A stretch of DNA of 64,000 bases, from contig JAIMBT010000017.1 in assembly GCA_023511295.1 (NCBI GenBank), forward strand, positions 1 through 64,000, in the 5' to 3' direction. This DNA is from Alicyclobacillus sp. GTDB taxonomy: Bacteria; Bacillota; Bacilli; Alicyclobacillales; Alicyclobacillaceae. Made by a program: the position numbers and the translations under genes. Shown here in pieces: positions 35,347-53,140 of the stretch. Positions within the stretch are counted from its first letter, which is position 1, and each line of letters starts with the position of its first letter. Below the pieces are notes generated by a model, which was not told the DNA's origin, ran no database searches, and was given only the letters and a program-made list of their open reading frames with translations.

Positions 35347-36672
35347 GTGAGCAGAGGCAGTTCACGGGATACGCCATCGGTGGGAAAGCGGAGCGCCTGG
35401 GTCTACTTCACCCGGTCGCTCGTGTTCAACGGACTGGAAAACATCGTCCCCCAAGCGTTTCTTCTTCGCTGGGCCACGGGTAACCGGGACGTGCTGCTGA
35501 TGTCGTGTCTGGCGGCGTCTTCCCTGTCCGCTATCGCCGGTGCGCTGTTGTCGGCACGGGTTGGCCGATTTCTGGACAAGTCGTCGAGAGGAATCCGGAA
35601 CAGCCTGCTGTTGGTCCTGCTGCTCGGCATGTCTGCAGGCTGGATTCTTATGTTCGCGGTCCGGCACTACGCGGTGTTTCTCGTGCTGACGTGCGTCGTC
35701 GCCGTGGGGGTCGAGCTGGTGTTCAACGTCATGGACAATCGATACGTTCACGCTCAGTCTGGCGCGGCATTGGACGAGCATCTGGGTCGAGCCACCGTCT
35801 CTCAAATGATGGCAATCACCGTCGGGCCATTCTACTTCGCATTGTTTCAGGGATTCCGCGTGAACGCCATTGTTCTGACCGTGCTGTGCGTCGGGTTGGT
35901 GCTCACCGTTCTGACGACCTATCGGCCGTTGCGAGGCGACCGCGTGCAGGGCGGCGGTTGGCGGCGCGAACGCAACTGGAGGCGGCCGAATTTGCGGCGA
36001 ACGGATGTCCTGTTTCTCACCTTCAGTTGCGCGATGTTCTGTTCATCGGTGGTGATGGCGTCCAACTGCATCTATATCCTGAAAGAGTTTTATCGCGTTG
36101 GCAACGCCGTTCAACTGGGTGGCATCGCGATTGGCTGCAGCAGTGTGGTCGGTATCTTCGCCATCGCGGTATACCGTTTCACCTCCACACGTCGCGCGCA
36201 CACAAACCCGTCGCCGACTCCGGGCGTACTCCGGTCAGGGGTCTTTGAGACCGCGCTGTACCTGTTTGCGGTCGTCATGCTCCTCGTCAAAGCGGTTCCG
36301 GCGTACTGGTACTTCTTGACCTTGGCCTGCCTGGCTGGATGTGCCTACGGTCTCTTCCAGCTGACTTCACGTCAGTACGCGAGTTCCCGCATCTCGCAGG
36401 CCGGCAGTGAACAGGTCTTGACCTGGTTCAACCTGCTGCAGAGTGTGGCTTCCCTCGCTGGTTTTCTGACAGGTTTGGTGGTTTCTCTCCTGTCGGTATG
36501 GCTGCACGCCTCCTACACCCTGATGGTCATCGGGACCATGGCGCTGTACGTGCTGGTGGCTTTGGTGGCGCTGGCCCTACTGGGTCTCCACCGTACCGGC
36601 CGCGACTCGGTGGGGCCAGGGCAGTGGAACGCGCGCCCTGCACAGACTGAAGGGAGTGATACGCTTGTCTGA
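35347..36672 (+). CDS. Major facilitator superfamily transporter
   Basis: 441 aa from a GTG at 35347 (AGGGGGG 8 nt upstream); an ATG at 35329 is the alternative. About 12 hydrophobic helices with a cytoplasmic basic loop after helix 6 (RGDRVQGGGWRRERNWRRPN). MFS motif A-like sequence ARVGRFLDKSSRGIRN lies between helices 2 and 3. It is the first gene of the lipid-synthase operon and its stop overlaps the synthase start, so it is translationally coupled. A role in export of the lipid product or import of a precursor is possible; the sequence does not decide. Confidence 0.85.
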   Translation: MSRGSSRDTPSVGKRSAWVYFTRSLVFNGLENIVPQAFLLRWATGNRDVLLMSCLAASSLSAIAGALLSARVGRFLDKSSRGIRNSLLLVLLLGMSAGWILMFAVRHYAVFLVLTCVVAVGVELVFNVMDNRYVHAQSGAALDEHLGRATVSQMMAITVGPFYFALFQGFRVNAIVLTVLCVGLVLTVLTTYRPLRGDRVQGGGWRRERNWRRPNLRRTDVLFLTFSCAMFCSSVVMASNCIYILKEFYRVGNAVQLGGIAIGCSSVVGIFAIAVYRFTSTRRAHTNPSPTPGVLRSGVFETALYLFAVVMLLVKAVPAYWYFLTLACLAGCAYGLFQLTSRQYASSRISQAGSEQVLTWFNLLQSVASLAGFLTGLVVSLLSVWLHASYTLMVIGTMALYVLVALVALALLGLHRTGRDSVGPGQWNARPAQTEGSDTLV

Positions 36673-39600
36673 GTTTCCACACGTCCCGATTGCCGTCGTC
36701 GGATTTTCCGCGCTCTTTCCCGGCTCTCCGGATACGCCGGGGTTTTGGAAGAGTATTGTCCAGGGGCGTGACTTGGTTACGGAGGTCCCTCCGTCCCATT
36801 GGTTAGTGGACGACTATTTCGATCCCAATCCCGGCACGCAAGATAAAACGTACGCGAAGCGCGGGGCGTTTTTGTCGCCGGTGGAGTTTCCGGTTCTCGA
36901 TTTCGGCATCCCGCCCAGTGCCATCCCGCACACCGACACGGCGCAGTTGCTGGCGTTGCTGGTGGCCAAACGGGCATTCGATGAAGCGACGAGGGGGGCG
37001 AGTGTGGAGGTCGACCGAGATCGGATTGGTGTGATTCTCGGGTCCATTGGCGCGACCGAATTGTTCACAGAGATGTCGAGTCGCCTTCAGCGGCCGCTGT
37101 GGGCGGATGCCTTGCGGGCCTGCGCCATTCCCGACGATGAGATTGAAGAGATCTGCGACGCCATTGCCGATTGCTATGCGCCGTGGAGTGAGAGCACGTT
37201 TCCGGGGTTGCTGAGCAACGTGGTGGCGGGGAGGATTGCGAACCGCCTCAACCTCGGCGGCGAGAATTTCACGGTGGACGCGGCCTGCGCGAGTTCGCTG
37301 GCCGCGGTGGAGATGGCGGTGCGCGCGCTCGAGAGCGGCTCCGCAGACCTGATGCTCACCGGCGGCGTGGATGCGCTGAACACTATCTTCACGTTCACGT
37401 GCTTCACGAAGACGCCGGCTCTGTCCCCCACCGGAGACAGCCGACCGTTTTCCGACCAGGCGGACGGGACCATCCTCGGCGAAGGGGTCGGGGTGTTGGC
37501 CCTCAAGCGGTTGGCGGACGCCGAGCGGGACGGCAACGCCATCTACGCGGTGATTCGGGGCATCGGGTCGTCTTCCGACGGCCGGGCGAAGAGTGTGTAT
37601 GCCCCCCATGCCAAGGGGCAGGCGAAGGCGCTGCGCCGGGCGTACGAGATGGCCGGATACGCCCCGCGTACGGTGGAGTTGGTCGAGGGGCATGGGACGG
37701 CGACGGCTGCCGGGGATGCGGCGGAAGTCGAAGCGTTGCGGGAAGTGTTCGAGGCGGACGGCGCGCCTTCGCAGGCGTGGTGTGCGTTGGGGTCGGTGAA
37801 GTCGCAGATTGGGCATACCAAGGCGGCAGCAGGGGCGGCCGGGTTGTTCAAGGCCGTGATGGCGCTGCACCACAAAGTCTTGCCGCCGACGATAAAGGTG
37901 GAGCGCCCGAACCCGGAGCTGAAGCTGGAGGAGAGTGCGTTTTACCTGAACACGGAGGCGAGGCCGTGGATTCGCGCGAAGGGCCAACCGCGGCGCGCAT
38001 CGGTGAGTTCGTTTGGATTTGGGGGCAGCAACTACCACGTGACCTTGGAGGAGTACCAGGGTCCCAAGCGTCCTGGGAAGCTGCGGACGAGCGGGGTGGA
38101 ACTGGTACTGGTGAGCGGGGCGAGCGCGGGCGAGGTGGTGGAACGGAGTCAGGGACTACTGGCAGACCTTGCGGCGGGGGCGACACTCGTCGAGTTGGCG
38201 AGACAGACGCAGCTAGCGTGGGACCATGCCAAGCCGGCGCGCCTCGCTGTGCTGGCGGCCGATGAAGCCGAGCTCGGGGAGCGCTTGCAGCACGCGATTT
38301 CGCACATCCAGGCCGAACCAGAGCGGAGCATCCGCCAGATGAACCGGCTGCATTACGCGGTGGGCAGGGAGCCGGGGAAGGTGGCGTTCCTGTTTCCGGG
38401 GCAGGGGAGCCAGTATATCGGGATGGGCGCCGACTTGGCGATGACGTTTGAGGCGGCGCGGGCGGTGTGGGATGAGGCTGCAGAGGTGGAGATTGAGGAT
38501 GGGCTTCGGGTTCACGACGTGGTGTTTCCACAGCCGGTGTTCATCGAGGCGGCGCGCCGGGCGCAGCAGGAGCGGTTGACGCGGACGGAGTGGGCGCAGC
38601 CGTGTATCGCGGTGGCGAGTATGGCGGGCTTGGCAGTTCTCCGGTCCTTGAACATTCAGCCCGACTGCGTGGCGGGCCACAGCTTCGGGGAAACCACCAG
38701 CCTGTATGCAGCGGGGGTGTGGGATATCGCCTCCACCATTCAGATTTGTCGCGGTGTGGCCCGGCTCGCGAAGGATACCGCTCCTGGCGCGATGGCCGCC
38801 GTCTTCAGCCGGGCCGATGTGGACGAATTGAGCCCGCTGTTTGAAGCGTGCGGGGTCGCCGTTGCGAACTACAACTCTCGGAAGCAGTGCGTCATCACCG
38901 GCCAGCCGCAACAAATCGAACAATTGAAGGAGCGGCTGCCGGCCAAAACACGGCTCCAGTCCATTCCGGTCGACGTCGCGTTCCACTCCCCAGCAGCGGA
39001 ACCGATTGTGCCGCCATTTCGCGAAATGCTCCGGGCGTATACGGCCCGCATGCCGAGGGTGGACGTGTACTCCTGCCTAACGGGCGAGAAGTATACGGCG
39101 GAGACCAGCGAAGCGGTGCTGAATCAATACGTGCAGGTCGCAGCCCGTCCGGTGCGGTACGCGCAACAGGTTGCTGCGATGTACCGCGACGGTGTGCGAA
39201 CGTTTATCGAAGTCGGTCCTGGGTCTGTGCTCGCCGGCATCACGGAACAGTGTCTGGACGGCAAGGAGGCCACCGTCGCCAGCCTGGACCGCAACGGCTC
39301 CCGGGGGCTCACGGGTCTGTGGAATGCGCTGGCCCAGTTAGCGGTTGCCGGCGTACCGTTGCGCCTTGCGGGCATATGGAGTGAGTTCGGTGACCCGGAA
39401 GGGACGACCTCATCTACGTCTCTCAACAGCTCGAATGGCCCGCGCGTGATGATCTCTGGCGCCAATAGTGGCCGCCCTTATCCCGCCGCGTTTCTGGAAG
39501 AACCAGATGCAACGACGACGCCAGAGCCGTCCACCGAGCGCGATGCTCGAAGTGGGCCACCGGAACCGAAAGTGCCTACTCAGCTGGTCGGCTCTCGCGA

Positions 39601-40402
39601 GTCCGTGCCGTTTCGCGTCCCAGAGGTCTCCCAACCACAGGTTGATACCTTGCAACATCTCGCATTGGAAGAAGGAGGACAAACCGTGAATCAGCTGAAC
39701 GCCTCGATGAGCGACAGACTTCTCATCCTGCAGGAACTGCAGCGGCATATGACGGAAGCGCACATTTCCTATCAAAAGACGATGGCCGAGGTACACGAAA
39801 CGTATTTGCGGCTATGCGACCTCGCCATCCGTCAAGCGGCCAACACGCAGACCGATATCGTCCTCGAACCGGAGCGGTCTGCCGTTCCAGCAGTTGCGAT
39901 GGCCGCCCCGTCGCTCCCCGTTCCATCGTTCCCGGTCCCGCGCTTGGATGACCGGGGCCCCACCTGGCAGGAATCGAACGCAAAGGAGGCGGCGCCTGCG
40001 TTGGAGGTGGCCGAGACGGCGCGGAGTGCAGATGTGTGGCCTTCGGTCGAGCACCAGGCCACCGCGGCAAACCCGCCAGTAGAAGTCAGCCAGATAAACG
40101 GAGCGCACGAGACGAGTGTGAGCCCGCAAAGTCCGTCTGCCGACATTGCGGCCGTGTTTCTCGATATCGTCGCGGAGAAGACGGGGTATCCGCGAGACAT
40201 CCTGGAACTTGACATGGACATGGAAGGGGACCTCGGGATTGACTCCATCAAACGCGTGGAGATTCTATCGGCGGTTCAAGACCGGGTGCCGACGTTGCCG
40301 GAGATTTCGTTGAGCGAGCTGGCCACCCTCGGCACGCTTCGACAGGTGATTGCGTACGTTCAGCAGGCCGAAACGACAGCCGCTGGGGCCGACGGACGAT
40401 GA
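36665..40402 (+). CDS. PUFA-synthase-like polyketide synthase, KS-AT-ACP (PfaA-like)
   Basis: 1245 aa from a TTG at 36665, 8 nt after AAGGGAG; a GTG at 36656 abuts the ribosome site. Order: ketosynthase (1-450) with active Cys208 in VDAACASSLAAVE and the His motifs EGHGTATAAGD and QIGHTKAAAG; acyltransferase (565-850) with FPGQGSQYIGMGA, Ser673 in GHSFGE and AFHSP; a linker with SGANSGRPYP; a helical stretch (about 1010-1060, HMTEAHISYQKTMAEVHETY); one acyl carrier domain with Ser1194 in DLGIDSIKRVEIL. The DSIKRVEIL motif is the PUFA-synthase type. PfaA proteins normally carry several ACPs and a KR; here there is one ACP and no KR. Residues 199-604 are encoded by a tract identical to the next gene. 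Confidence 0.92.
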   Translation: MSEFPHVPIAVVGFSALFPGSPDTPGFWKSIVQGRDLVTEVPPSHWLVDDYFDPNPGTQDKTYAKRGAFLSPVEFPVLDFGIPPSAIPHTDTAQLLALLVAKRAFDEATRGASVEVDRDRIGVILGSIGATELFTEMSSRLQRPLWADALRACAIPDDEIEEICDAIADCYAPWSESTFPGLLSNVVAGRIANRLNLGGENFTVDAACASSLAAVEMAVRALESGSADLMLTGGVDALNTIFTFTCFTKTPALSPTGDSRPFSDQADGTILGEGVGVLALKRLADAERDGNAIYAVIRGIGSSSDGRAKSVYAPHAKGQAKALRRAYEMAGYAPRTVELVEGHGTATAAGDAAEVEALREVFEADGAPSQAWCALGSVKSQIGHTKAAAGAAGLFKAVMALHHKVLPPTIKVERPNPELKLEESAFYLNTEARPWIRAKGQPRRASVSSFGFGGSNYHVTLEEYQGPKRPGKLRTSGVELVLVSGASAGEVVERSQGLLADLAAGATLVELARQTQLAWDHAKPARLAVLAADEAELGERLQHAISHIQAEPERSIRQMNRLHYAVGREPGKVAFLFPGQGSQYIGMGADLAMTFEAARAVWDEAAEVEIEDGLRVHDVVFPQPVFIEAARRAQQERLTRTEWAQPCIAVASMAGLAVLRSLNIQPDCVAGHSFGETTSLYAAGVWDIASTIQICRGVARLAKDTAPGAMAAVFSRADVDELSPLFEACGVAVANYNSRKQCVITGQPQQIEQLKERLPAKTRLQSIPVDVAFHSPAAEPIVPPFREMLRAYTARMPRVDVYSCLTGEKYTAETSEAVLNQYVQVAARPVRYAQQVAAMYRDGVRTFIEVGPGSVLAGITEQCLDGKEATVASLDRNGSRGLTGLWNALAQLAVAGVPLRLAGIWSEFGDPEGTTSSTSLNSSNGPRVMISGANSGRPYPAAFLEEPDATTTPEPSTERDARSGPPEPKVPTQLVGSRESVPFRVPEVSQPQVDTLQHLALEEGGQTVNQLNASMSDRLLILQELQRHMTEAHISYQKTMAEVHETYLRLCDLAIRQAANTQTDIVLEPERSAVPAVAMAAPSLPVPSFPVPRLDDRGPTWQESNAKEAAPALEVAETARSADVWPSVEHQATAANPPVEVSQINGAHETSVSPQSPSADIAAVFLDIVAEKTGYPRDILELDMDMEGDLGIDSIKRVEILSAVQDRVPTLPEISLSELATLGTLRQVIAYVQQAETTAAGADGR
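37259..38477 (+). repeat. 1219-bp perfect direct repeat, copy A
   Basis: Identical base for base to 41039-42257 (offset 3780), covering the KS active site through the start of the AT domain. Similarity continues with scattered mismatches to 37191 on the left and about 38690 on the right, then stops abruptly. Confidence 0.97.
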
Positions 40403-40435
40403 GTCGGTCCGTTATCAGAGCGGAGAGGAGGGGCG

Positions 40436-43400
40436 ATGGTGTCCGCGCAACGTATGGCGATTGCGGTTGTCGGGTATGAGACCCTGTTTCCTGGTTCCAC
40501 CAACCGAACTGGGTTCTGGCGGGACATCCTGGCGGGCCGCGACTGTATCACGGATGTTCCGCCCTCCCACTGGTTGTTGGACGATTATTACGATGCCAAT
40601 CCAGGCACAGAGGACAAAACGTATGGCCGCCGGGGCGGGTTCATACCGTCCGTACCATTTTCCACGCTGGAATTCGGGATGCCGCCGAACGTCCTTCGTC
40701 ACACCGACACGACGCAACTGCTCGCGCTGCTACTCGCCAAACAGGTCCTGAGCGAAGCCTTGGGGGAGGACGTTGCTGCACAGGAATTCCCGGAACTCGA
40801 CAGGGTCGGCGTGATACTCGGCGTCGCTTCCGGGACCCAACTTGCCTCCGACATGGTCGGGCGGATTGGCCGGCCCATCTGGCAGCGGGTCCTGCGTCAG
40901 CGCGGGTTTACGGAAGCGCGCGTACGCGCGATTTGCGATGCGATGGAAGCCCGGTTCACCCCGTGGAGTGAGAGCACGTTTCCGGGGTTGCTGAGCAACG
41001 TGGTGGCGGGAAGAATCGCGAACCGCCTCAACCTCGGTGGCGAGAATTTCACGGTGGACGCGGCCTGCGCGAGTTCGCTGGCCGCGGTGGAGATGGCGGT
41101 GCGCGCGCTCGAGAGCGGCTCCGCAGACCTGATGCTCACCGGCGGCGTGGATGCGCTGAACACTATCTTCACGTTCACGTGCTTCACGAAGACGCCGGCT
41201 CTGTCCCCCACCGGAGACAGCCGACCGTTTTCCGACCAGGCGGACGGGACCATCCTCGGCGAAGGGGTCGGGGTGTTGGCCCTCAAGCGGTTGGCGGACG
41301 CCGAGCGGGACGGCAACGCCATCTACGCGGTGATTCGGGGCATCGGGTCGTCTTCCGACGGCCGGGCGAAGAGTGTGTATGCCCCCCATGCCAAGGGGCA
41401 GGCGAAGGCGCTGCGCCGGGCGTACGAGATGGCCGGATACGCCCCGCGTACGGTGGAGTTGGTCGAGGGGCATGGGACGGCGACGGCTGCCGGGGATGCG
41501 GCGGAAGTCGAAGCGTTGCGGGAAGTGTTCGAGGCGGACGGCGCGCCTTCGCAGGCGTGGTGTGCGTTGGGGTCGGTGAAGTCGCAGATTGGGCATACCA
41601 AGGCGGCAGCAGGGGCGGCCGGGTTGTTCAAGGCCGTGATGGCGCTGCACCACAAAGTCTTGCCGCCGACGATAAAGGTGGAGCGCCCGAACCCGGAGCT
41701 GAAGCTGGAGGAGAGTGCGTTTTACCTGAACACGGAGGCGAGGCCGTGGATTCGCGCGAAGGGCCAACCGCGGCGCGCATCGGTGAGTTCGTTTGGATTT
41801 GGGGGCAGCAACTACCACGTGACCTTGGAGGAGTACCAGGGTCCCAAGCGTCCTGGGAAGCTGCGGACGAGCGGGGTGGAACTGGTACTGGTGAGCGGGG
41901 CGAGCGCGGGCGAGGTGGTGGAACGGAGTCAGGGACTACTGGCAGACCTTGCGGCGGGGGCGACACTCGTCGAGTTGGCGAGACAGACGCAGCTAGCGTG
42001 GGACCATGCCAAGCCGGCGCGCCTCGCTGTGCTGGCGGCCGATGAAGCCGAGCTCGGGGAGCGCTTGCAGCACGCGATTTCGCACATCCAGGCCGAACCA
42101 GAGCGGAGCATCCGCCAGATGAACCGGCTGCATTACGCGGTGGGCAGGGAGCCGGGGAAGGTGGCGTTCCTGTTTCCGGGGCAGGGGAGCCAGTATATCG
42201 GGATGGGCGCCGACTTGGCGATGACGTTTGAGGCGGCGCGGGCGGTGTGGGATGAGGTCGCAGAGGTGGAGATTGAGGAGGGGCTTCGGGTCCACGACGT
42301 GGTGTTTCCGCAGCCGGTGTTCACCGCGGAGGGGCGCCGGGCGCAGCAGGAGCGGTTGACGCGGACGGAGTGGGCGCAACCGTGTATCGCGGCGGCGAGT
42401 ATGGCGGGGTTGGCGGTGCTCCGGTCCTTGAACATTCAGCCGGACTGCGTGGCGGGCCACAGCTTTGGCGAATTGACCGCACTTCACGCCGCGGGTGCGA
42501 TGGATGCGCGAACCCTGATTGCGCTTGCACGGCACCGGGGGGAACGGATGGCTGCGGCATCTGACACTCCAGGCGCCATGTTCAGCGTGTTTGCGCGGGA
42601 ATCCGCGTTTGCGGACCTGATGCGCGACCTGCCGGTTGTCGTGGCGAACCGCAACGCGCCGGAACAGGTGGTCGTCGGCGGGCCTCTGGACGACATGCTC
42701 GAGTTGGAACGGCGTCTGACCAAAGCGGGCATTCGCTCTACTCGCCTCAACGTATCCACGGCGTTTCACTCGCCGCTGGTCGCGGCAGCAGCAGACGACC
42801 TTGCGGAGACGCTTTCGAAGATGAAGGTGTCGCGTCCCACCATACCGGTCATTTCGAACACGTATGCCAGACCGTATCCCGCAACGGTCGCTCAAATCAA
42901 GCGTCAGATAGCGCAACAACTGGCGAAGCCGGTCCTGTTTCAAGCTCAAATCGACGCGATGTACGACCAGGGTGTGCGCACCTTCATCGAAGTGGGACCG
43001 GGATCTACCCTGGCAGGGCTCACCACACAATGCTTGGTTGAGCGCAGCGCCGTGGTCGTGAGTCTCGATAAGCGCGGCCAGCGGTTGAACGGTTTCTGGA
43101 ACGGGTTGGCACAGTTGGCCGTCGCGGGCCTCCCGATGGATTTCTCTGCAATGTGGCAGGAGTTCCAGGAAATCCGAGCGCAGGCACCTGCAAAGGGCGA
43201 AGCGGCCAGGGGTGCCGTGGTGATGTTGAACGGATCGAACGTCGGGAAGCCGTATCCCCGCATCCGTCCGAATGGGCCGGCGCTTCGGCCGGCTGAACAG
43301 CCGGGCACCGCTGCGCCCCAGCCGACCCTCGATAGAGGGGTCGTGACCCTGGTGCCGGTGCGGCCCGGCGGGACGTCCATCCTCGACGGCTTTCCGCGGC

Positions 43401-44827
43401 ATCACCGGGTGGCCGTAACCGATGACGGCCGCGGCGTGGCTCAGGCGCTGGTTCGACGGTTGCGGGACGCCGGCTACCCCGCGTCGGTTGTCCGTCAGGT
43501 TCCGGACGACGCCAAGCTGGTCATTCACCTCGCAGCCCTCCGCGACCTGGACCGTGTGGAATCGGCGATTGGGTGCAATGAGGAGGCGTTTCTCCTGTGT
43601 CAGGGGCTGTCGACCGAATTTCGAGCGGATGGCCGACTCGTCCTGGTTCAGTCGACGGACGGCGACTTTGGCGCTTCGGGTCGCGGCGGTGCGCGCGCGT
43701 GGTCGGCCGGTATCGCCAGTCTGGCCAAGACGGTGGCGCGGGAGTGGCCGGGTGTGCAGGTCAAAGCCTTGGACATCGCCATGACGGGTCAGCGCGTGGA
43801 AGACGTTGCGCGACGTATTTTCGAGGAGATATCCCAGGGTGGCGCGACGTTGGAAGTCGGGTTGCAACCGGGGGACGTTCGCGTGACGCCGGTTGTGGAG
43901 CCGCGCCCGCTCAGCTACGCAAATCGCAACCGCGCGGCAACGCTGCTCGACCCGGGGGCGGTGGTGGTCGTCACAGGGGGGGCTCGCGGCGTCACCGGCC
44001 GTTGCTTGGAGGAATTGGCGAAGGAAGTGCAACCTCAGTTCGTGATCTTCGGCCGGACACGTCTGCGCCCGGAATGGCACCCGGAACTCGACGCTTTGGA
44101 CCACTCGCAAGTCATGGAGTGGATTTGGCGAGCGGAGCGGGAAGCAGGCAGACGTCCCGTCCCCGCGGCGTTATCCCAGCGGGCCAAGGACATCCTGGCG
44201 GAGCGCGACGTTCGACAAACCTTGCACCGCTTGTCGCAAGCCGGTGCAAAAGTCGCTTACCAGTCCGTGGACGTCCGTGATTCCCAGGCTCTGCACACGG
44301 CCATTCAGTGGACCCGACGACAGTTTGGGCCCATCGCGGGCCTGATTCATGGAGCGGGCGTGATTGAGGACGCGCTCATCTCGGACAAGTCCGTGGAGCA
44401 GTTCCGACGCGTCTTTGAAACGAAGGTGCGCCCGGCTCAAGTCTTTCTCGAAGCCACCAAGGATGACCCCATTCGGCTCATCTGCCTGTTCTCGTCGGTT
44501 GCCGCACGATACGGGAACCAAGGTCAGAGCGATTACGCTATGGCGAATGAAGTGCTGAACAAAGTCGCGAGACAGGAACAGGCCCGGCGAGGCGCTTCGT
44601 GCGTCGTCCGTTCGATTGCCTGGGGGCCGTGGGACGGCGGCATGGTGGATGGTGCACTGAAGTCCCATTTGACGCGCCTTGGCGTGGGCCTCATCGACAT
44701 CCAAACGGGTGCGCGCGCCTTTGTAGAGGAACTTCTGTGCGGGGACGGTCACCCGGAAGTGGTCGTACAAGCGATGGGCGACCGGGCATCTGCGGACATG
44801 GGCCGCATGGAGGTGAAATCCAGTTGA
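40436..44827 (+). CDS. PUFA-synthase-like polyketide synthase, KS-AT-KR
   Basis: 1463 aa, ATG with GAGAGGAGGGG upstream. Ketosynthase (1-455) with Cys211, acyltransferase (578-850) with Ser676 in GHSFGELTALHAAG and AFHSPLVAA, a LNGSNVGKPYP linker near 930, then a ketoreductase (about 1010-1400). The KR has VVVTGGARGVTGRCLEEL for NADPH and the Ser-Tyr pair in LFSSVAARYGNQGQSDYAMA (Tyr1367). There is no ACP. The KS is catalytically complete and is not a chain-length-factor type, because its active-site region lies in the tract identical to the previous gene. Works in trans with the ACP of the first protein (inference). The start of the next gene overlaps its stop. Confidence 0.92.
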   Translation: MVSAQRMAIAVVGYETLFPGSTNRTGFWRDILAGRDCITDVPPSHWLLDDYYDANPGTEDKTYGRRGGFIPSVPFSTLEFGMPPNVLRHTDTTQLLALLLAKQVLSEALGEDVAAQEFPELDRVGVILGVASGTQLASDMVGRIGRPIWQRVLRQRGFTEARVRAICDAMEARFTPWSESTFPGLLSNVVAGRIANRLNLGGENFTVDAACASSLAAVEMAVRALESGSADLMLTGGVDALNTIFTFTCFTKTPALSPTGDSRPFSDQADGTILGEGVGVLALKRLADAERDGNAIYAVIRGIGSSSDGRAKSVYAPHAKGQAKALRRAYEMAGYAPRTVELVEGHGTATAAGDAAEVEALREVFEADGAPSQAWCALGSVKSQIGHTKAAAGAAGLFKAVMALHHKVLPPTIKVERPNPELKLEESAFYLNTEARPWIRAKGQPRRASVSSFGFGGSNYHVTLEEYQGPKRPGKLRTSGVELVLVSGASAGEVVERSQGLLADLAAGATLVELARQTQLAWDHAKPARLAVLAADEAELGERLQHAISHIQAEPERSIRQMNRLHYAVGREPGKVAFLFPGQGSQYIGMGADLAMTFEAARAVWDEVAEVEIEEGLRVHDVVFPQPVFTAEGRRAQQERLTRTEWAQPCIAAASMAGLAVLRSLNIQPDCVAGHSFGELTALHAAGAMDARTLIALARHRGERMAAASDTPGAMFSVFARESAFADLMRDLPVVVANRNAPEQVVVGGPLDDMLELERRLTKAGIRSTRLNVSTAFHSPLVAAAADDLAETLSKMKVSRPTIPVISNTYARPYPATVAQIKRQIAQQLAKPVLFQAQIDAMYDQGVRTFIEVGPGSTLAGLTTQCLVERSAVVVSLDKRGQRLNGFWNGLAQLAVAGLPMDFSAMWQEFQEIRAQAPAKGEAARGAVVMLNGSNVGKPYPRIRPNGPALRPAEQPGTAAPQPTLDRGVVTLVPVRPGGTSILDGFPRHHRVAVTDDGRGVAQALVRRLRDAGYPASVVRQVPDDAKLVIHLAALRDLDRVESAIGCNEEAFLLCQGLSTEFRADGRLVLVQSTDGDFGASGRGGARAWSAGIASLAKTVAREWPGVQVKALDIAMTGQRVEDVARRIFEEISQGGATLEVGLQPGDVRVTPVVEPRPLSYANRNRAATLLDPGAVVVVTGGARGVTGRCLEELAKEVQPQFVIFGRTRLRPEWHPELDALDHSQVMEWIWRAEREAGRRPVPAALSQRAKDILAERDVRQTLHRLSQAGAKVAYQSVDVRDSQALHTAIQWTRRQFGPIAGLIHGAGVIEDALISDKSVEQFRRVFETKVRPAQVFLEATKDDPIRLICLFSSVAARYGNQGQSDYAMANEVLNKVARQEQARRGASCVVRSIAWGPWDGGMVDGALKSHLTRLGVGLIDIQTGARAFVEELLCGDGHPEVVVQAMGDRASADMGRMEVKSS
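41039..42257 (+). repeat. 1219-bp perfect direct repeat, copy B
   Basis: Second copy of the tract at 37259-38477, within the KS-AT-KR gene. The edges do not coincide with domain borders, and no insertion-sequence features flank it. Confidence 0.97.
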
Positions 44828-47800
44828 AGGCACGAATCAACACTCACTCCGAGGCGGGTCCAGCGCTGCGCGACTACTGGCGGCGTTGGTATCAAGACGT
44901 ATCGGAGACTCACCAACAGTACCTGCACGCGTCCGTCTCGTTGTATCAGAGATACATGGACAACCAGGGTCTTCTGGTGGGCACTCTCAGCCAGATGGGA
45001 CCGGACATCGTCGACACGACAGACGTCGTCGAAACCGTGGTGCTGTCGAAAGGTCAGCTCGATTTGCTTGCGGCCGGCCGGGTCGCGGAGTGCCTCGGGG
45101 CGGATTTCACGGTCTGCGACGCGCACGTCCGGACACCGCGCCTCCCCCAGGCGGATACCATGTGGCTCGATGGATTGACCATTCAGCGGGCAGTGAATGG
45201 GACGAGCCCAGGCGGCGTCGTCCTACATGCGGCCTGTGATTTTGAACGACTGTTCAACGCAGGGCCCGGCGCAGAGCGCGCCCTGCTGGAGGCGGTGCAA
45301 ACGGCCAGTTTGCAGGCGCTTGCCGCGTACATGATACAGACCGGTCAGACCCTGAATCACGATGGCTGGCGCTTTGAACAGACGTCCGGGTTCCATGCGA
45401 CGCAGGGGAGCCTAACGTGGCTGCGAGACCATCCGGTTGCCGCGATAGAGATGCGCATCCACCCAGCGGACTGCAGTGTCCGTGCGAACGCACGGGTGAC
45501 GGACGGGACACATACGTGGCGGGGTGAGGGGTTTATTGCGGCCCTTGTGCCAGACTGGCCTCTGCAAGACCACCCAGAGCTGATGAACATCGAGGACCCT
45601 GTCCCGGCGTTCTCGGACGGCGAAATCGTGTTCAATCGTCGGGCCATGGCGGAGTTTTCGCTCGGCCGGCCGTCGCGTGCGCTCGGCTCCCGTTATCAGG
45701 CCTTTGACGCGGAACGCCAGTTCTCTCGTCTCCCAGGTCCCGCGTACCAGTGCCTGTCGCGGGTTTGCGATGTCGAAGTGCCAAACCCGGGAGAGACGGA
45801 CCGGAAACTCAAGGTGGTGGCAGAATACGACGTTCCACCGGACGCGTGGTATTTTGCCGCCAATGGCGGGACCATGCCGTTTTGTATCCTACTCGAGACG
45901 GCGTTGCAGCCCTGCGGGTGGTTGGCTCTGTACGCGGGTATCCCGCTGGAGTCGGACAAAGATCGCTGGTTTCGGAATTTGGACGGTTCAAGCGTGCAGT
46001 ACCGGACGCTCCGTCCGGACGTCGGCACCATCCGCACCGAGGCATCCTTGGTGTCGGAATCGAGATTCATGGACACGTGGATTGGGACCTACGACATCAC
46101 CTGCACGGTGCGCGGCGAAGTGGTCTTTCGCGCCAAGGCTACCTTTGGATATTTCACGCGCCAAGATCTAGCCCGGCAAGTTGGGTTGCAGACGACGGAC
46201 GACGAGCGAGATCGTCTGACGGAACCGTCGCCCTTTCAGACGTCGGGTCAAGAATGGTCGGAAATCCGGTCGCTCTTGCAATCCAATCTGTCGATGCTGG
46301 ACCGAGTGAGTGGCTACTGGCCGGGAGGTGGTCGGTTCGGACTCGGCAGAATCCGCGGCGAGAAACAGGTCCGGGCAAGTGAGTGGTTCTTCAAGGCCCA
46401 TTTCTACACCGATCCGGTCCAACCCGGGTCACTCGGAATTGAAGCGATGATTCAGTTGTTGAAATGTTTCAGCCTCCAGGAATCTCTTCAGGAGGGCATC
46501 GCAGATTTTGTTTTTACCCATGTTCCGAACCAGTCTTGTGAATGGACCTACCGCGGCCAAGTTCTGCCGACAAACGGTCAAATCACCGTTGATTTGGATG
46601 TGTCGTCCATTGAACGTTCGGCGTCGGGCGTGAAGGTGATGGCCGACGGCACGCTGTGGGTGGACGGGAAAAAGATTTACCGTGTCCGCAATCTCGGTAT
46701 CCGACTCAGCAACCGAGCGGATGAATTAGGGGAATCATCGGTCGCTGCGGCGGATGCCGGCGAAGAGGTCATCAGTCCGGCCGTACAAACGTGGCTGAAC
46801 GACCACTGTCCAACCTATACCGCACCGGCGCTGCCGTTCATGTTCATGGTAGACCGCCTGGCAGCGGCCGCCCTGGCGAAACGCCCCAATGCGGTGGTCA
46901 TCGGTTTGGAGCAGGTTCAGGTGAACAACTGGCTGGTGTGCGACAAACCGCGCAAGTTGCGGACGGAAGTGGCGGCGGACCCGAGCAACCCCGATGTGTT
47001 CGATGTGACGTTGCTCTGTTGGCGGGACGCCTTGACCGAATCACTTTCTCGGTATGAACCGATTGCACAAGGCCGGGTTCACTTGGGGCCAGCTTATCCG
47101 CACACGGCTCCCTGTTCGCCCCTTGAGCGTTTGATAGACCCGTGTGACGACGGGGACCCGTATCAGACAGGGCGGATGATGCACGGTCCGACGTTTCAGG
47201 TGGTGCAGCAGATCACGTACGGGACGAACGGCGCCGACTATACGCTCGACGCGTCCATCCGGTCGGTCCCGAAGGGCTGCCTGAATCAGCTCCTGCTGGA
47301 CGGGGTGACGCACGGGATTCCCAACCATCGACTGAACCTAGCGTTCCCGGAGCTCTCGGAGGAGTACGTGGTCTTTCCCAAAGCCATCGAGTGGGCGCGC
47401 ATCCACCGCCCGATTCCGGACGCGGGGAGCGTGTCTTGCGAGCTGCGACCCGATGGGTTCTGGGACGGAAAGAAATTCCCGGCCTTCCGAGTTCGGATGT
47501 ACCAAGGGGACAGGGAGATTCTCGAGATGCGCTTGGTCGGCGTGCTGTTTCCCAAAGGTGCGCTGGCGCAAGTAGATCTGGCCGACCTGCGAAAGTTTTT
47601 GCGGGACCAAGTGCACGTCCCGAATGTCAGCTTGTCGACATGGGACGGTATGATGACTCGCGTCCAACTCGCGGATATCAAGAGCTTCGACTGGTTTCCA
47701 GGAACGGTGGCTTCGGTCTATGCGACGAGCGGAGCGTTGCCTGCGTTGGGCCTGAACGTCGCGGTCAAGGAACACGTGGCGCGACGGGAACGGGTCCATC

Positions 47801-48906
47801 CGCGATTTGTGACCGTGTCAGACGATGGTTCCTGCGCCTGGTCAGAGGGGAACCCACTCGTACGCTATTCGCTCGCAACGTCGGCGAAGGGGCGCGAGAT
47901 ACAGGTCTCCGACAGGCGACCGCCGGCACGGGACGTGGCCCGCCTGGTCGGGTTCTGGCAAGCGTACGCCGGGGCTCCCGACGGATGGCTGGTGGATGAC
48001 CTTATGACGGGGTTGGTGGAGGTTTTGACGCGGCGAGTCCGGGTTCTCGACCCTGCAGGGTTGGCGAACCTGAAGGGCAAGCCGGTCATCTTCATGGCGA
48101 ATCATCAGACGGCCATTGAATCGACGTGGTTTCTCTATCTGGCCTCGGCGCTGCACCGTACGCCCGTCATGGCCGTGTCCAAGGCGGAGCACCGGGACTC
48201 GTGGGTCGGCCAACTGGTTGAAGCGATGGCGCATCCCTCCGTCCGGCTTTCGGAACTCCTGGTGTACTTCCAACAACAGGATGGCCTCTCGCTCCTCCCG
48301 TTGCTTGAAGAACTCGGAAGCAAGGTTCGCACAACGGGGCATTCCGTGCTGATTCACGTGGAAGGCGCGCGGATGTACAGCGCCAGGGACATCGTCCGCA
48401 ACATCAGCGCTGGACTGGTCGACTTCGCGATGAACGAACAACTGCCCATCGTGCCCGTGTGGTTTGGCGGCGGTTTGCCTGTGCGGCCGGTGAAGGATTT
48501 GCTGGATGTGCCCGCTGGTTTGGCACCGCAAGACGTGTTCTTTGGTTCGCCGATTGACCCACAGCAACTTCAGGGCCGGTATCTGCGGGACCGCAAGATG
48601 TTGATTCTGGATGCCATTAACCAAACCGGCGCGGTTTCCAGGCAGGGTGGGTTGAACCGCGGCAACAAAGGCCTGGCTTCCGAAGTCGCCCAATTGGTCG
48701 GCAAATGGAACATGGACCCGGCGTATGCGCTGCTGGTTGCCGGCCTGTCGGCGTTGCGGCACCCGGGACCTGACACCGTACAAATCCTGAAGGGTCTGCG
48801 CGATGGCGTATTGCGAGTTGACAGCGATGCGCACGGACGCTGGTTGGGCGAGGTCGCGCAGTTGTTGTACGGCCCCAGTGGGCCCCGAGTGGAGTTCGGG
48901 AGCTAG
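44824..48906 (+). CDS. PfaC-like multi-dehydratase fused to an acylglycerol-phosphate acyltransferase
   Basis: 1360 aa from a TTG at 44824 (GGAGG at 44809-44813), overlapping the previous stop. An N-terminal helical stretch (LRDYWRRWYQDVSETHQQYL) resembles the helix of the KS-AT-ACP protein. FabA/PfaC-type hot-dog segments follow: AWYFAANGGTMPFCILLETA near 341, AHFYTDPVQPGSLGIEAMIQ near 530, a PKS-DH-like WLNDHCPTYTAPALPFMFMV near 659 with MMHGPTFQVV near 786 and LLDGVTHGIPNH near 823. The C-terminus (1085-1300) is an AGPAT/PlsC domain: FMANHQTAIES and IHVEGARMYS. PfaC normally has KS and CLF ahead of the dehydratases; both are absent. The fused acyltransferase suggests direct transfer of the finished acyl chain to a glycerophospholipid (inference; a similar fusion is known in myxobacterial PUFA synthases). 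Confidence 0.88.
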   Translation: MKARINTHSEAGPALRDYWRRWYQDVSETHQQYLHASVSLYQRYMDNQGLLVGTLSQMGPDIVDTTDVVETVVLSKGQLDLLAAGRVAECLGADFTVCDAHVRTPRLPQADTMWLDGLTIQRAVNGTSPGGVVLHAACDFERLFNAGPGAERALLEAVQTASLQALAAYMIQTGQTLNHDGWRFEQTSGFHATQGSLTWLRDHPVAAIEMRIHPADCSVRANARVTDGTHTWRGEGFIAALVPDWPLQDHPELMNIEDPVPAFSDGEIVFNRRAMAEFSLGRPSRALGSRYQAFDAERQFSRLPGPAYQCLSRVCDVEVPNPGETDRKLKVVAEYDVPPDAWYFAANGGTMPFCILLETALQPCGWLALYAGIPLESDKDRWFRNLDGSSVQYRTLRPDVGTIRTEASLVSESRFMDTWIGTYDITCTVRGEVVFRAKATFGYFTRQDLARQVGLQTTDDERDRLTEPSPFQTSGQEWSEIRSLLQSNLSMLDRVSGYWPGGGRFGLGRIRGEKQVRASEWFFKAHFYTDPVQPGSLGIEAMIQLLKCFSLQESLQEGIADFVFTHVPNQSCEWTYRGQVLPTNGQITVDLDVSSIERSASGVKVMADGTLWVDGKKIYRVRNLGIRLSNRADELGESSVAAADAGEEVISPAVQTWLNDHCPTYTAPALPFMFMVDRLAAAALAKRPNAVVIGLEQVQVNNWLVCDKPRKLRTEVAADPSNPDVFDVTLLCWRDALTESLSRYEPIAQGRVHLGPAYPHTAPCSPLERLIDPCDDGDPYQTGRMMHGPTFQVVQQITYGTNGADYTLDASIRSVPKGCLNQLLLDGVTHGIPNHRLNLAFPELSEEYVVFPKAIEWARIHRPIPDAGSVSCELRPDGFWDGKKFPAFRVRMYQGDREILEMRLVGVLFPKGALAQVDLADLRKFLRDQVHVPNVSLSTWDGMMTRVQLADIKSFDWFPGTVASVYATSGALPALGLNVAVKEHVARRERVHPRFVTVSDDGSCAWSEGNPLVRYSLATSAKGREIQVSDRRPPARDVARLVGFWQAYAGAPDGWLVDDLMTGLVEVLTRRVRVLDPAGLANLKGKPVIFMANHQTAIESTWFLYLASALHRTPVMAVSKAEHRDSWVGQLVEAMAHPSVRLSELLVYFQQQDGLSLLPLLEELGSKVRTTGHSVLIHVEGARMYSARDIVRNISAGLVDFAMNEQLPIVPVWFGGGLPVRPVKDLLDVPAGLAPQDVFFGSPIDPQQLQGRYLRDRKMLILDAINQTGAVSRQGGLNRGNKGLASEVAQLVGKWNMDPAYALLVAGLSALRHPGPDTVQILKGLRDGVLRVDSDAHGRWLGEVAQLLYGPSGPRVEFGS

Positions 48907-48949
48907 GGAGGCCGTATCATTCCACCACCCAGGGAGGGGTCTCACAGGC

Positions 48950-50539
48950 ATGAAAGCGGCCGCAGTCGACATCTTTCAATTGAGTTACCTGAAGTTCGCC
49001 GTCGAGCAGATTCGCGAGCCTCTGCACATCGTGACAGATGGGCGAACGAACACGGTGTGGGTGGTCACGGCCTCGGACTGGCGAAACGGCGTCGATCAAA
49101 GCGGGCGTGGCCAACTGGATTGGGTGGCCACGGTCCCTCCGTGCCATCCCGAGTGGCTTGGGGACCGGTCATTCCTAGAGGCACACCACTTGCGGTTCCC
49201 GTACCTTGCCGGCGAAATGGCAAACGGGATTGCCACCAGCCGGATGGTCATCGCCATGGCGAACGCCGGCATGATGGGGTTCTTCGGAGCGGGTGGACTC
49301 GCCGTGGAGGCGGTCGAGCGGGCGGTACAGGAGATAGGAGGGGTTCTCGGCGCAACGGGACGTCCGTGGGGGGTCAACCTGATTCATTCGCCCTACGACC
49401 CTGCATTGGAGGGTGCTTTGGTCGATTTGTACCTCCGCTCTGGCGTCACCCGCGTATCTGCGTCCGCGTTCTTGCGACTCACCCCGGCCGTGGTTCGCTT
49501 TGCGTTCGCGGGTCTCCGGCGGACTTCCGATGGCCAGATTGTTCGGCCGCACCACGTCTTCGCCAAAATCTCCCGCTCCGAGGTCGCGAGGCAGTTTTTG
49601 TCGCCCCCTCCACGGGAGATACTCGACGGACTGGTTCAGATGGGTCAACTGACCGCGGAGGAGGCCGAGTTGGCTGCGAACCTCCCGGTTGCGGAAGATA
49701 TCACGGTCGAAGCGGATTCCGGCGGACATACGGACGGGCGGCCACTGCTCGTGCTCCTGCCGGAGATCTTGCGCGTGCGCGACCAGATCTGTGGACAATT
49801 CCACTACGCGTGTCCGGTGCGTGTCGGCGCTGCTGGAGGGATTGGTACGCCGGAAAGTGCTGCCGCAGCCTTTGCTGCTGGAGCGGCGTACGTCTTGACC
49901 GGATCGATCAACCAGTGTTCGGTGGAGTCCGGTGCATCCGAAGTCGTCAAGCAGATGCTAGCGGAGGCCAGTGCAACGGACGTCGCCACGGCGCCGGCCG
50001 CGGACATGTTTGAACTCGGCTCGAAGGTCCAGGTGTTAAAGAGAGGAACCCTGTTCGCGTCAAGGGCGACGCAACTGTACGAACTGTACCGCTCGTACGG
50101 AAGTCTGACGGACATTCCCATCGCGGTTCGGTCTCGGCTAGAAAAGGAGATCTTTCGGGCGACATTGGATGAAATCTGGGATGGCACTCGATCATTCTTT
50201 GCTCTGCGTGACGAGTCGCAACTGCGAAAGGCAGAGGCAGACCCCAAACACAAGATGGCACTGGTGTTTCGATGGTATTTAGGGAACGCGAGCAAGTGGG
50301 CGATACGCGGGCAGCGGGATAGGCAGACGGACTATCAGATTTGGTGCGGACCGGCCATGGGGGCGTTCAACGAATGGGTGAGAGGCACCTTTCTACAAAG
50401 TGTGCAACAGAGATCGGTCGTTCAGATGGCGCTGAACCTGCTGGAAGGAGCCGCAGTGGCCACGCGGGCACAGCACCTGCGAAGCGCTGGCGTTCGCGTG
50501 CCGAACAACGTGTTCGCGTTTCAGCCCCGCCCCTTATGA
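48950..50539 (+). CDS. PfaD-like enoyl reductase (FMN-dependent)
   Basis: 529 aa, ATG at 48950 with AGGGAGGGG upstream; longer upstream frames have no family features. TIM-barrel FMN protein of the FabK/nitropropane-dioxygenase type: EMANGIATSRMVIAMANAGM, FGAGGLAVEAVERAV, DITVEADSGGHTDGRPLLVL, GAAGGIGTPESAAAAFAAGA and YVLTGSINQ. The long C-terminal region with MFELGSKVQVLKRGTLFASR and DYQIWCGPAMGAFNEWVRGT is the PfaD extension. It supplies the enoyl reduction missing from the multidomain proteins. In PUFA synthases this is a separate subunit, as here. Confidence 0.93.
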   Translation: MKAAAVDIFQLSYLKFAVEQIREPLHIVTDGRTNTVWVVTASDWRNGVDQSGRGQLDWVATVPPCHPEWLGDRSFLEAHHLRFPYLAGEMANGIATSRMVIAMANAGMMGFFGAGGLAVEAVERAVQEIGGVLGATGRPWGVNLIHSPYDPALEGALVDLYLRSGVTRVSASAFLRLTPAVVRFAFAGLRRTSDGQIVRPHHVFAKISRSEVARQFLSPPPREILDGLVQMGQLTAEEAELAANLPVAEDITVEADSGGHTDGRPLLVLLPEILRVRDQICGQFHYACPVRVGAAGGIGTPESAAAAFAAGAAYVLTGSINQCSVESGASEVVKQMLAEASATDVATAPAADMFELGSKVQVLKRGTLFASRATQLYELYRSYGSLTDIPIAVRSRLEKEIFRATLDEIWDGTRSFFALRDESQLRKAEADPKHKMALVFRWYLGNASKWAIRGQRDRQTDYQIWCGPAMGAFNEWVRGTFLQSVQQRSVVQMALNLLEGAAVATRAQHLRSAGVRVPNNVFAFQPRPL

Positions 50540-50588
50540 GCGATGGGACAGGCGGGCGCGGTGGGCCACGCCCTGGGAGAACCTGGCC

Positions 50589-51293
50589 ATGGTGAATCTC
50601 GTTGCTGTGAAATGGCGTCCGGAGGAAGCGGATAGACTGCAGCGTGCGTTCCTCGAATTCCTTTCGGAAGACAAACAGAAGCGGGTGTCCCGATGCATGC
50701 ATCCGATGACACGCCGACAGGTTCTGGTTGCTGACCTGTTCGTGCGGGCCGTGCTCGGGAGACACCTGAATGTGACGAACCGACAACTGGCATTCGAACG
50801 AAACGAATACGGGAAACCCTCGCTTCGCGGGATTTCCCACGTGCATTACAACGTCTCGCACTCCCATGAGTGGATCTTGTGCGCCGTCGGTACCGTCGAG
50901 GTCGGGGTGGACATTCAGTACATGCAGCCGTTTGACCACCGGACCGTTCACCGCTACCTGCATCCCGCGGAGCAAGAGGACATCGCTGGGCAAGACGGTG
51001 CCGCGCAGCAGTTGGAGCGATTCTACGCGATTTGGACACGCAAGGAAAGTTACGTGAAAGCGTTGGGGCGGGGATTGGCTGAACCTTTCTCGTCGTTCTG
51101 TGTGGCTATTGGCCCGAGGGAAGATTCGCCCTTGGTGGACGCTGTGTCCCGAAGTCCGTGGCGTTTCACGTCCTGTTGGGTGGATGCGGGCTATCAAGCG
51201 ACACTTTGTACGCCGGCCGCGGCGCATGTCGACCCCGTCGTCCAGGTGTGGCCCATGGAGGCGTTCGAGCAGATGCTGGTCCAGATGGCGTAG
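50589..51293 (+). CDS. 4'-phosphopantetheinyl transferase, Sfp type
   Basis: 234 aa, ATG at 50589 after GGGAGAA. Sfp/EntD-type motifs: FERNEYGKPSL, VHYNVSHSHEW, VGVDIQYMQPF and the C-terminal FYAIWTRKESYVKALGRGL, with the metal-binding Asp and the WxxKES block intact. It transfers phosphopantetheine from CoA to the Ser of acyl carrier domains, almost certainly Ser1194 of the KS-AT-ACP protein in this operon. Length is normal for the Sfp branch. Confidence 0.93.
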   Translation: MVNLVAVKWRPEEADRLQRAFLEFLSEDKQKRVSRCMHPMTRRQVLVADLFVRAVLGRHLNVTNRQLAFERNEYGKPSLRGISHVHYNVSHSHEWILCAVGTVEVGVDIQYMQPFDHRTVHRYLHPAEQEDIAGQDGAAQQLERFYAIWTRKESYVKALGRGLAEPFSSFCVAIGPREDSPLVDAVSRSPWRFTSCWVDAGYQATLCTPAAAHVDPVVQVWPMEAFEQMLVQMA

Positions 51294-53098: not shown

Positions 53099-53140
53099 GT
53101 TCACATAGATTTGAGATGACATGCTAGAGGGGTGGGTAAC

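Follow-up and report, generated by a model that had tools for sequence, protein, structure and literature searches.

A PUFA synthase-like gene cluster with two PfaA-type ketosynthase subunits in Alicyclobacillus

Previously, Pfa-like clusters have been reported from 10 phyla, with Bacillota represented in that survey by only one cluster, the type T of Clostridium thermocellum (PMC3098273). The sequence-only reading of the locus described here had placed such clusters mainly in marine gammaproteobacteria, myxobacteria and some actinobacteria. Type L (Aetherobacter, Minicystis, Sorangium; Pfa1-Pfa3) has been defined by a fused pfaBC with KS-CLF-DH2-AT and by pfaD at the 5′ end (PMC3098273), and dehydratase proteins terminating in an AGPAT are known from these myxobacterial synthases (PMC4882568, PMC8436480, PMC6731297). 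In type D, PfaA is split into KS-AT-ACP5 and KR proteins; type H has a split pfaA, and single-ACP clusters are not excluded from the Pfa class (Shulse and Allen). Besides, a cyanobacterial hybrid clade resembles our locus in its split PfaA and CLF-less pfaBC, and CLF-less PUFA-like hybrid clusters serve PKS-NRPS products (PMC13291983). No PUFA synthase study in Bacillota was found among the literature matches listed.

The present study describes a PUFA synthase-like secondary-lipid cluster, as the sequence-only reading had recognised, in the window (the whole 64,000-nucleotide stretch of Alicyclobacillus DNA analysed); one Spo0A match above cut-off backs the Bacillota assignment of this spore former. 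With type L it shares a PfaD-type enoyl reductase (ER), PfaA-type KS-AT and a PfaC-like protein combining FabA-like and PKS-like dehydratases (DH) with a C-terminal AGPAT (PF01553, NHxxxxE). Unlike in type L, neither the PfaC KS-CLF didomain nor a PfaC-type AT was found in the window cluster, the first FabA-like DH is dead, the ACP is single, the KR lies on its own KS-AT protein with no DH found after it, and the ER is downstream. The nearest DH sequence by tree path, at 36% identity in a tree that warns of long branches, also comes from Bacillota: Paenibacillus eucommiae (L005, NZ_JAGGLB010000009.1). There, too, separate ACP and KR proteins replace one PfaA, and the order is ACP protein, KR protein, DH-AGPAT protein and ER. 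Unlike our cluster, it has two ACPs and a KR-PSDH protein without KS-AT, and its PfaC retains KS, a CLF-like domain, AT and the first FabA-like DH motif.

AGPAT-ended PfaC proteins and split PfaA are thus already known features. Both had been taken for parts of a new layout; both are present here, but the proposal that the AGPAT fusion is new is ruled out by the type L precedents and by 77 of the best 80 relatives, and a split PfaA was already known from types D and H. An identical layout was found neither in the best 80 relatives, 23 of them cut at the contig start, nor in type L; type T, like our cluster from Bacillota, has its layout given only as a figure (PMC3098273), so an earlier description may exist there. 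In the available text on types D and H and the cyanobacterial clade, neither a KS-AT-KR paired with a KS-AT-ACP nor an AGPAT is mentioned. The phosphopantetheinyl transferase (PPTase) motif in the window, YNVSH, is nearer to the (F/S)NxSH of types A-L than to the hShxH of types M-T (Shulse and Allen). What is unusual is that both ketosynthases (KS) are PfaA-type with no KS-CLF of the PfaC kind, that the first FabA-like DH has lost its catalytic motif, and that there are identical KS-AT tracts, a second copy and Ugp-like genes. The sequence-only reading had not picked out the identical tracts, the duplicate cluster, the Ugp-like importer, the dead dehydratase or the descent of both KS from PfaA.

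Gene and domain layout

Domain calls from Pfam and NCBIfam profiles plus motif checks bore out the earlier account of the domain content and order of six genes, all on the plus strand (Table 1). Of the reported overlaps, two hold: the MFS stop overlaps the start of the KS-AT-ACP gene, and the KS-AT-KR stop (TGA, 44825-44827) overlaps the likely start of the DH gene, whose longest-ORF start (44599) is probably too early. The remaining junctions are gaps of 33, 43 and 49 nt.

Table 1. Coordinates of the cluster, its domains and the adjoining genes in the window
Feature	Position	Strand	Basis or remark
Whole cluster	35347-51293	+	MFS, KS-AT-ACP, KS-AT-KR, multi-dehydratase-acyltransferase protein, PfaD-type ER, Sfp-type PPTase
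MFS transporter	35347..36672	+	first in block; GTG start; Pfam MFS_1, E 1.1e-09
KS1-AT1-ACP protein	36656..40402	+	Pfam/NCBIfam, motif checks, KS trees
1219-bp tract, first copy	37259..38477	+	base-for-base identical to 41039-42257 in next gene
Single ACP of KS-AT-ACP protein	about 40157-40360	+	ACP serine motif
KS2-AT2-KR protein	40436..44827	+	Pfam/NCBIfam, motif checks, KS trees; KR at about 43958-44635
1219-bp tract, second copy	41039..42257	+	base-for-base identical to 37259-38477
PfaC-like DH-AGPAT protein without KS-CLF	44824..48906	+	likely TTG start after GAGGTG; 1360 aa
Degenerate first FabA-like DH	45025..45618 (approximate)	+	HFKNDPCMPGTLM-type motif lost
FabA-like DH with catalytic His and Glu (AHFYTDPVQPGSLGIE)	46264..46728 (approximate)	+	Pfam, alignment
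PKS-like (PS-)DH	46729..47988 (approximate)	+	His and Asp...His conserved
AGPAT (PlsC-type) acyltransferase domain	48067..48465	+	Pfam PF01553; NHxxxxE kept
PfaD-type enoyl reductase	48950..50539	+	TIGR02814 655.4 bits (cut-off 449.25); probable ATG 48950; 529 aa
Sfp-type 4′-phosphopantetheinyl transferase	50589..51293	+	Pfam ACPS, 3.1e-17
UgpA-like ABC permease, possibly associated	51409..52251	+	best NCBIfam match UgpA, 7.3e-38, below cut-off
UgpE-like ABC permease, possibly associated	52251..53084	+	best NCBIfam match UgpE, 2e-45, below cut-off
UgpB-like solute-binding protein, possibly associated	53132..54481	+	best NCBIfam match UgpB, 3.8e-34, below cut-off

Both KS-AT proteins carry a PfaA-type KS with Cys/His/His and an AT, which in the first shows GHSFGE and AFHS motifs; the first protein also has a coiled-coil-like linker. 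Against TIGR02813 (PfaA, cut-off 1010.1 bits), KS-AT-KR scored 1108.8 (above) and KS-AT-ACP 912.8 (below); this profile and the KS trees place the pair with the PfaA-type KS-AT of Pfa synthases, as the TIGR02814 score does for the PfaD-type ER. The motif check gave one ACP serine motif in KS-AT-ACP and none in KS-AT-KR, in place of the tandem ACPs of Pfa synthases, and neither an ACP nor a PS-DH after the KR was found in the second protein. Hence the earlier description of a KR moved to the second KS-AT protein, no CLF found and one ACP stands, and the cluster still contains the KS, ACP and KR (at least one of each) by which Shulse and Allen define the Pfa class. The PPTase shows YGKP, VRAVLG and WTRKES stretches besides YNVSH.

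The DH protein is predicted to run from an N-terminal coiled-coil-like stretch through a dead FabA-like DH, a pseudo-DH, a FabA-like DH and a PKS-like DH to the AGPAT. The "DH-DH-DH" of the sequence-only reading therefore holds in part: the later FabA-like DH and the PKS-like DH keep their catalytic residues in 79/79 aligned rows, window and second copy included (His and Glu in the one, His and Asp...His in the other, whose Pfam PKS_DH_N match is weak and below cut-off), but the first FabA-like DH lacks its motif. Its catalytic His is present in 49/52 relatives; in the second copy the motif, read by eye, is also lost. LC-PUFA synthases are expected to have two active FabA-like DH, and by its motifs our protein would have one. 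FabA stretches number two in the window and one in the second copy, versus four and four in two relatives. The AGPAT N, H and E are present in 76/79 rows, the other three being gaps, and the window has EGAR where most other relatives displayed have EGTR.

Two PfaA-type ketosynthases and a second cluster copy

The complete cluster occurs a second time, at about 82% nucleotide identity, on another contig (C27). In quick trees computed without bootstraps, all four host KS grouped with PfaA and were separated from 48 PfaC KS, with an SH-aLRT of 100 for N-terminal and C-terminal halves alike. The candidate explanation that KS2 is a degenerate PfaC KS is thereby ruled out, both halves grouping with PfaA. 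KS N-terminal identity is about 50%, and in the N-half tree the KS1 of both clusters group together, as do the KS2.

The 1219-bp tract spans the catalytic half of the KS and the KS-AT linker and extends into the AT. In 50-bp bins at fixed register, identity falls from 100% through a fringe of 72-98% to 22-56% upstream and 14-66% downstream. This drop, together with the grouping of KS N-halves across clusters, rules out one recent whole-gene duplication. The C27 copy has a separate 1447-bp identical tract in its own KS-AT pair; therefore, the pairs were homogenised independently in each copy. There is a residual chance that the exact repeats arose as an assembly artefact. Within-cluster homogenisation of KS and AT is shared with the concerted evolution of modular PKS (rapamycin family, mycolactone; PMC4256081). 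The difference is that the homogenised enzyme in our case is an iterative lipid synthase and that two paralogous clusters are affected.

Purifying selection acts between the two copies: dN/dS was 0.05 to 0.31 in all nine gene pairs tested (MFS 0.21, ER about 0.11 (0.114), UgpA-like 0.05, UgpB-like 0.10), and the degenerate first FabA-like DH gave 0.33 versus 0.10 for the active one. That C27 is a contaminating contig of a sister species, which bears on the copy and not on function, appears improbable. Similarity between the copies extends beyond the cluster, with piecewise identities of 77-92%, and tracts are homogenised within contigs, not between them, as this would predict. Against it, reported contamination is 0.69%, and 19.9 kb of the window lacks any duplicate, as does 16.2 kb of unshared C27, save 34- and 116-bp matches on C27 itself. 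A further 8.0 kb of C27 is partnered on contig C4 at 71-75% (one 111-bp piece at 87%), which looks like an older duplication.

Proposed function and product

From this content we infer how the subunits may cooperate and what they may make. With about even confidence, we read the cluster as a reduced, type L-derived secondary-lipid synthase whose chain, saturated or mono/oligo-unsaturated and probably close to C18 in length, is passed to a glycerolipid via the fused AGPAT. The PPTase would activate the single ACP, AT1 and AT2 would load malonyl units, and all condensations would fall to KS1 and KS2 with their homogenised catalytic core, KS2 taking over the work of KS-CLF in other systems. The KR of the second subunit would serve the ACP carried by the first subunit, dehydration would be shared by a FabA-like and a PKS-like DH, and PfaD would reduce. 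The fused AGPAT may then move the finished acyl group onto a lysophosphatidic-type acceptor, as is presumed for myxobacterial AGPAT with 1-acylglycerol-3-phosphate (PMC6731297), and the adjoining Ugp-like importer may supply glycerol-3-phosphate or glycerophosphodiester.

Since KS-CLF is absent and the first FabA-like DH is dead, the chain would be saturated or mono/oligo-unsaturated and not EPA/DHA, in line with the earlier suggestion that the product is probably not a standard EPA/DHA one. KS-A has been credited with short-chain and C16/C18 substrates and KS-CLF with C10 and C20 (PMC9702510), and the final elongation with the PfaC KS-CLF (PMC12895367). Another report gives KSA a range of C18-C20 (PMC8305795), and therefore a C20 product, at most, is possible. 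In a Thraustochytrium synthase, no DHA was made after mutation of DH1, and a DH2 mutant still produced it (PMC9667614). Isomerisation by the remaining FabA-like DH is still possible, and in other systems the loss of its homologue, not of DH1, may matter.

It seems rather unlikely that the product is not a membrane glycerolipid but a specialised lipid-like metabolite (a signal, a surfactant or an antibiotic lipid) that leaves the cell through the MFS protein. The MFS gene does head the block and is retained in both copies, and the hybrid PKS-NRPS products mentioned above are fed by comparable CLF-less synthases; however, no NRPS, thioesterase or modular PKS was found among 20 flanking proteins scanned, and the AGPAT keeps its catalytic residues. 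The above-cut-off PfaD and KS-AT-KR scores, with relatives mostly from type L-like clusters, would suit an LC-PUFA synthase of the ordinary EPA/DHA/ARA type whose genes have been rearranged. We consider this quite improbable, as KS-CLF (credited with the last elongation), PfaC-type AT, ACP repeats and a DH after the KR were not found and the first FabA-like DH is dead. The lack of KS-CLF, of ACP repeats and of one PS-DH, together with the inactive first FabA-like DH, could suggest a decaying cluster retained as a relic, which is very improbable: the six genes are open in both copies under the dN/dS given, and the remaining catalytic residues and homogenised KS-AT pairs are found in each.

Our preferred reading of a glycerolipid-directed synthase has a bolder, doubtful extension. 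The operon would be a self-contained phosphatidate machine, importing glycerol-3-phosphate or glycerophosphodiester, with the two KS-AT subunits as a pseudo-heterodimer replacing KS-CLF on the single ACP, the AGPAT esterifying the backbone directly and bypassing the type II fatty-acid pool, and the two operons making two lipid variants. The locus offers a natural experiment on which PUFA synthase parts set chain length and double bonds. It has lost KS-CLF, the PfaC-type AT, the ACP repeats and the activity of one FabA-like DH, and selection has maintained in both copies the PfaA-type KS, a FabA-like and a PKS-like DH, the ER and the AGPAT. Its product would test, in Bacillota, how KS-A and KS-CLF are proposed to share the elongation work, as well as direct release to lipid by AGPAT.

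Relatives and genomic surroundings

The contig scan retained the best 80 of 553 relatives, so that a distant cluster with this layout may have escaped it. The DH proteins came mostly from type L-like clusters: in 52 a KS-type domain is fused to the DH protein, 23 are truncated at the contig start with their upstream domains outside the available sequence, and five have no KS in the DH ORF (L051, whose frames are broken, L071 from a short contig, and L080, L082 and L084, which are AT-DH without AGPAT). "CLF" in these relatives denotes a second, partial KS-like match without the Cys motif and does not come from a CLF model. None of the 80, 23 of them cut as above, has the KS-AT-ACP/KS-AT-KR pair; a KR ORF without ACP occurs in 6/49 relatives having a KR-DH ORF, some cut at contig ends. 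In the plasmid search, query P0004 gave 23 records, of which one, from Azospirillum lipoferum at 34%, reached 80% query coverage, and P0003 gave 16, none with that coverage.

Downstream of the cluster, both copies have UgpA/E/B-like (glycerol-3-phosphate-type) importer genes, the UgpE-like gene having homologous DNA on C27, and the nearest PDB chains to the UgpB-like protein are UspB/UgpB. The best matches are to UgpA, UgpE and UgpB, all below the equivalog cut-offs, and neither the Ugp-like nor the MFS genes matched the available DNA of the 80 relatives; therefore, the link of the importer to the synthase is weak. The genome also has FabF above cut-off and one stand-alone PF01553 acyltransferase, so the cluster is not the sole route.

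Composition of the cluster and its relatives

The sequence-only reading had noted a PUFA-synthase-like cluster, and this observation is real and well made. The domains and their catalytic motifs could be located within one block (table). The cluster is a variant of an already known kind of synthase, and its most interesting features are those which that reading missed. A motif check in the window found the catalytic Cys, His and His of the KS, the AT motifs GHSFGE and AFHS, the ACP motif LGIDS and the KR motif FSS...YxxAN; the PKS-like DH, the second FabA-like DH and AGPAT also keep their catalytic motifs. The DH protein (PfaC-like, with several dehydratases and a terminal AGPAT) probably starts at TTG 44824, overlapping the stop of the preceding gene, and the probable start of ER is ATG 48950. 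The host genome, 3.43 Mb in 42 contigs with 99.6% completeness and 0.69% contamination, has one over-cut-off match to Spo0A, consistent with an endospore-forming Bacillota host.

Coordinates of the cluster, its second copy and the associated repeats (C14, contig of the window; C27, another contig of the same genome)
Feature	C14	C27	Strand	Remark
MFS, KS-AT-ACP, KS-AT-KR, DH...AGPAT, PfaD-type ER, PPTase	35347-51293			single co-directional block
Second cluster copy, all six genes		26863-42920	minus	
Larger duplicated block	28554-57604 + 63689-67370	21677-46668 + 68-3749		DNA comparison
Identical bases common to both KS-AT genes	37259-38477 and +3780			1219 bases

A single scan of genome contigs, with the DH protein as query, found 553 relatives, of which the best 80 were kept, with best-segment identities of 30-40%. 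Their domains were called by a scan with the window's own domains, in which a partial KS-like domain was read as CLF. Among these best 80 of 553, 77 carry AGPAT on the DH protein (absent from L080, L082 and L084), and PMC4882568, PMC8436480 and PMC6731297 describe the fusion for type L (myxobacterial) synthases. The AGPAT-ended dehydratase protein, previously taken as new, is therefore ordinary among relatives. A KS-type domain is fused to the DHs in 52/80, usually as KS plus the partial KS-like domain; the DH ORF lacks KS in 5/80, and 23/80 DH loci are cut by the contig start. KR lies with DH in one ORF in 49 relatives, with ACP in 43 and without it in 6. By the domain scan, a KS-AT-KR ORF without ACP occurs in 0/80 of the same best relatives. 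No product for this layout is described among the matches listed from the open-licence PMC literature, the type T cluster of Clostridium thermocellum lying outside the comparison.

The DH protein was found in none of 60 other relatives in the genome set searched and in none of 397 other genomes of the phylum at 1e-10, while 11/397 other genomes in the class-level sample matched weakly, through the FabA-like stretch alone (E 1e-4 to 8e-4); these samples overlap and did not bring up L005 and L032, the two Bacillota relatives from the contig scan. The search for KS-AT-KR in 58 other genomes of the order at 1e-60 yielded one further match, which had 32% identity and covered KS-AT only. In similar actinobacterial clusters of Kibdelosporangium and Rhodococcus rhodnii (L080, L082, L084), an AT-DH protein shown with neither KS-CLF nor AGPAT is followed by separate KS, AT and KR genes.

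Two cluster copies and their ketosynthases

Homology between the window and C27 extends past the cluster on both sides, at 77-92% DNA identity in pieces. The duplicated block also holds genes for a polysaccharide deacetylase, a dicarboxylate symporter, a PLP enzyme and an Asp/Glu racemase; an aspartase-type lyase stretch at about 31.7-35.1 kb of C14 has no match in C27. The dN/dS values between window and C27 were 0.21 for MFS, 0.19 for KS-AT-ACP, 0.15 for KS-AT-KR, 0.17 for DH-AGPAT, 0.11 for ER and 0.31 for PPTase, and 0.05, 0.10 and 0.08 for the UgpA-like, UgpB-like and PLP enzyme genes. Contamination by a sister species is an unlikely source of the C27 copy, because no second copy exists in the genome for 19.9 kb of the window, nor for 16.2 kb of the unshared part of C27, apart from two short matches that lie within that contig; as a qualification, a further 8.0 kb of C27 resembles contig C4 at 71-75%. 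This duplicated stretch (C27 46999-55000, C4 9972-15574) hints at repeated segmental duplication in the host genome.

Quick trees of KS N-halves and C-halves (65 rows each: 48 PfaC, 13 PfaA, 4 from window and C27) placed all four host KS on the PfaA side, with SH-aLRT 100 against PfaC in both, and as one group (support 81 and 92, respectively). The AT C-halves fell on that side as well, forming two distinct long branches. We read the KS-AT pair as a duplicated PfaA, of which one copy would have kept the ACP and the other the KR. Two separate acquisitions are also possible, since the N-half support is low and the AT branches are separate. By tree path, the nearest DH relatives are L005 (Paenibacillus eucommiae) and L032, both Bacillota, although the tree program flags a meeting of long branches at this point. 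P. eucommiae shares the gene order of the window cluster but differs in having [..AT-ACP-ACP][KR-PSDH] and a PfaC still with KS-CLF-AT; its arrangement is plausibly the ancestral state.

Around the tract common to both KS-AT genes, identity is 72-98% in the fringe and 14-66% outside (50-bp bins, fixed register). The C27 cluster has 1447 identical bases between its own two KS-AT genes, and in most 100-bp bins the KS-AT portion of gene 1 shows 78-98% identity between window and C27. The N-half tree pairs the KS1 of one cluster with the KS1 of the other, and likewise the two KS2, whereas in the C-half tree the nearest row of each host KS is its partner within the same cluster. These tracts and opposite pairings suggest that the pair was homogenised independently inside each cluster by gene conversion. 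Concerted evolution is known for PKS domains, according to PMC4256081.

Dehydratases and predicted product

In relatives (n = 52), the first FabA-like unit carries the motif HFxNDPCMPGTLM, whose His is kept in 49; of the other three, one has D, one R and one a gap at that position. The motif is lost in the window and, by eye, in C27. The DH-like segment before this unit, seen in the relatives inspected, is replaced in the window by a coiled-coil-like stretch that by eye resembles PfaA linkers. Pfam FabA stretches number 2 in the window and 1 in C27, as against 4 each in M. rosea and P. eucommiae, and dN/dS is 0.33 for the degenerate FabA-like part versus 0.10 for the active FabA-like DH. The PfaC KS of Mycobacterium angelicum (L057 (6557)) is missing its Cys motif, and the actinobacterial PfaC-like proteins L058 and L080 lack the His of the first FabA-like DH; thus, single activities have been lost elsewhere too.

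In published work, short-chain and C16/C18 condensations are credited to KS-A and C10/C20 to KS-CLF (PMC9702510), the last elongation is credited to the PfaC KS-CLF (PMC12895367), and loss of FabA-like DH1 activity in a thraustochytrid synthase abolished DHA, whereas DH2 loss did not (PMC9667614). From this division and the DH1 result, we predict a chain of about C18 with few double bonds. C20, at most, would be allowed, as PMC8305795 gives KSA C18-C20 and KSC C20-C22. AGPAT would then release the finished chain onto a glycerol backbone. The host genome also has FabF over the cut-off and one stand-alone PF01553 acyltransferase, so the cluster's pathway is a secondary one.

The genes after the cluster match UgpA, UgpE and UgpB best, all below cut-off, and had no match in the available DNA around the best 80 of 553 relatives; that they supply the acyl acceptor is a lead only. 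Elsewhere in the window, 1168-11546 holds genes for DUF1177, a PucR regulator, an Asp/Glu racemase family member, a purine/cytosine-type permease, a carbon-nitrogen hydrolase and hydantoinase, and resembles a cluster for the breakdown of hydantoin or purines.
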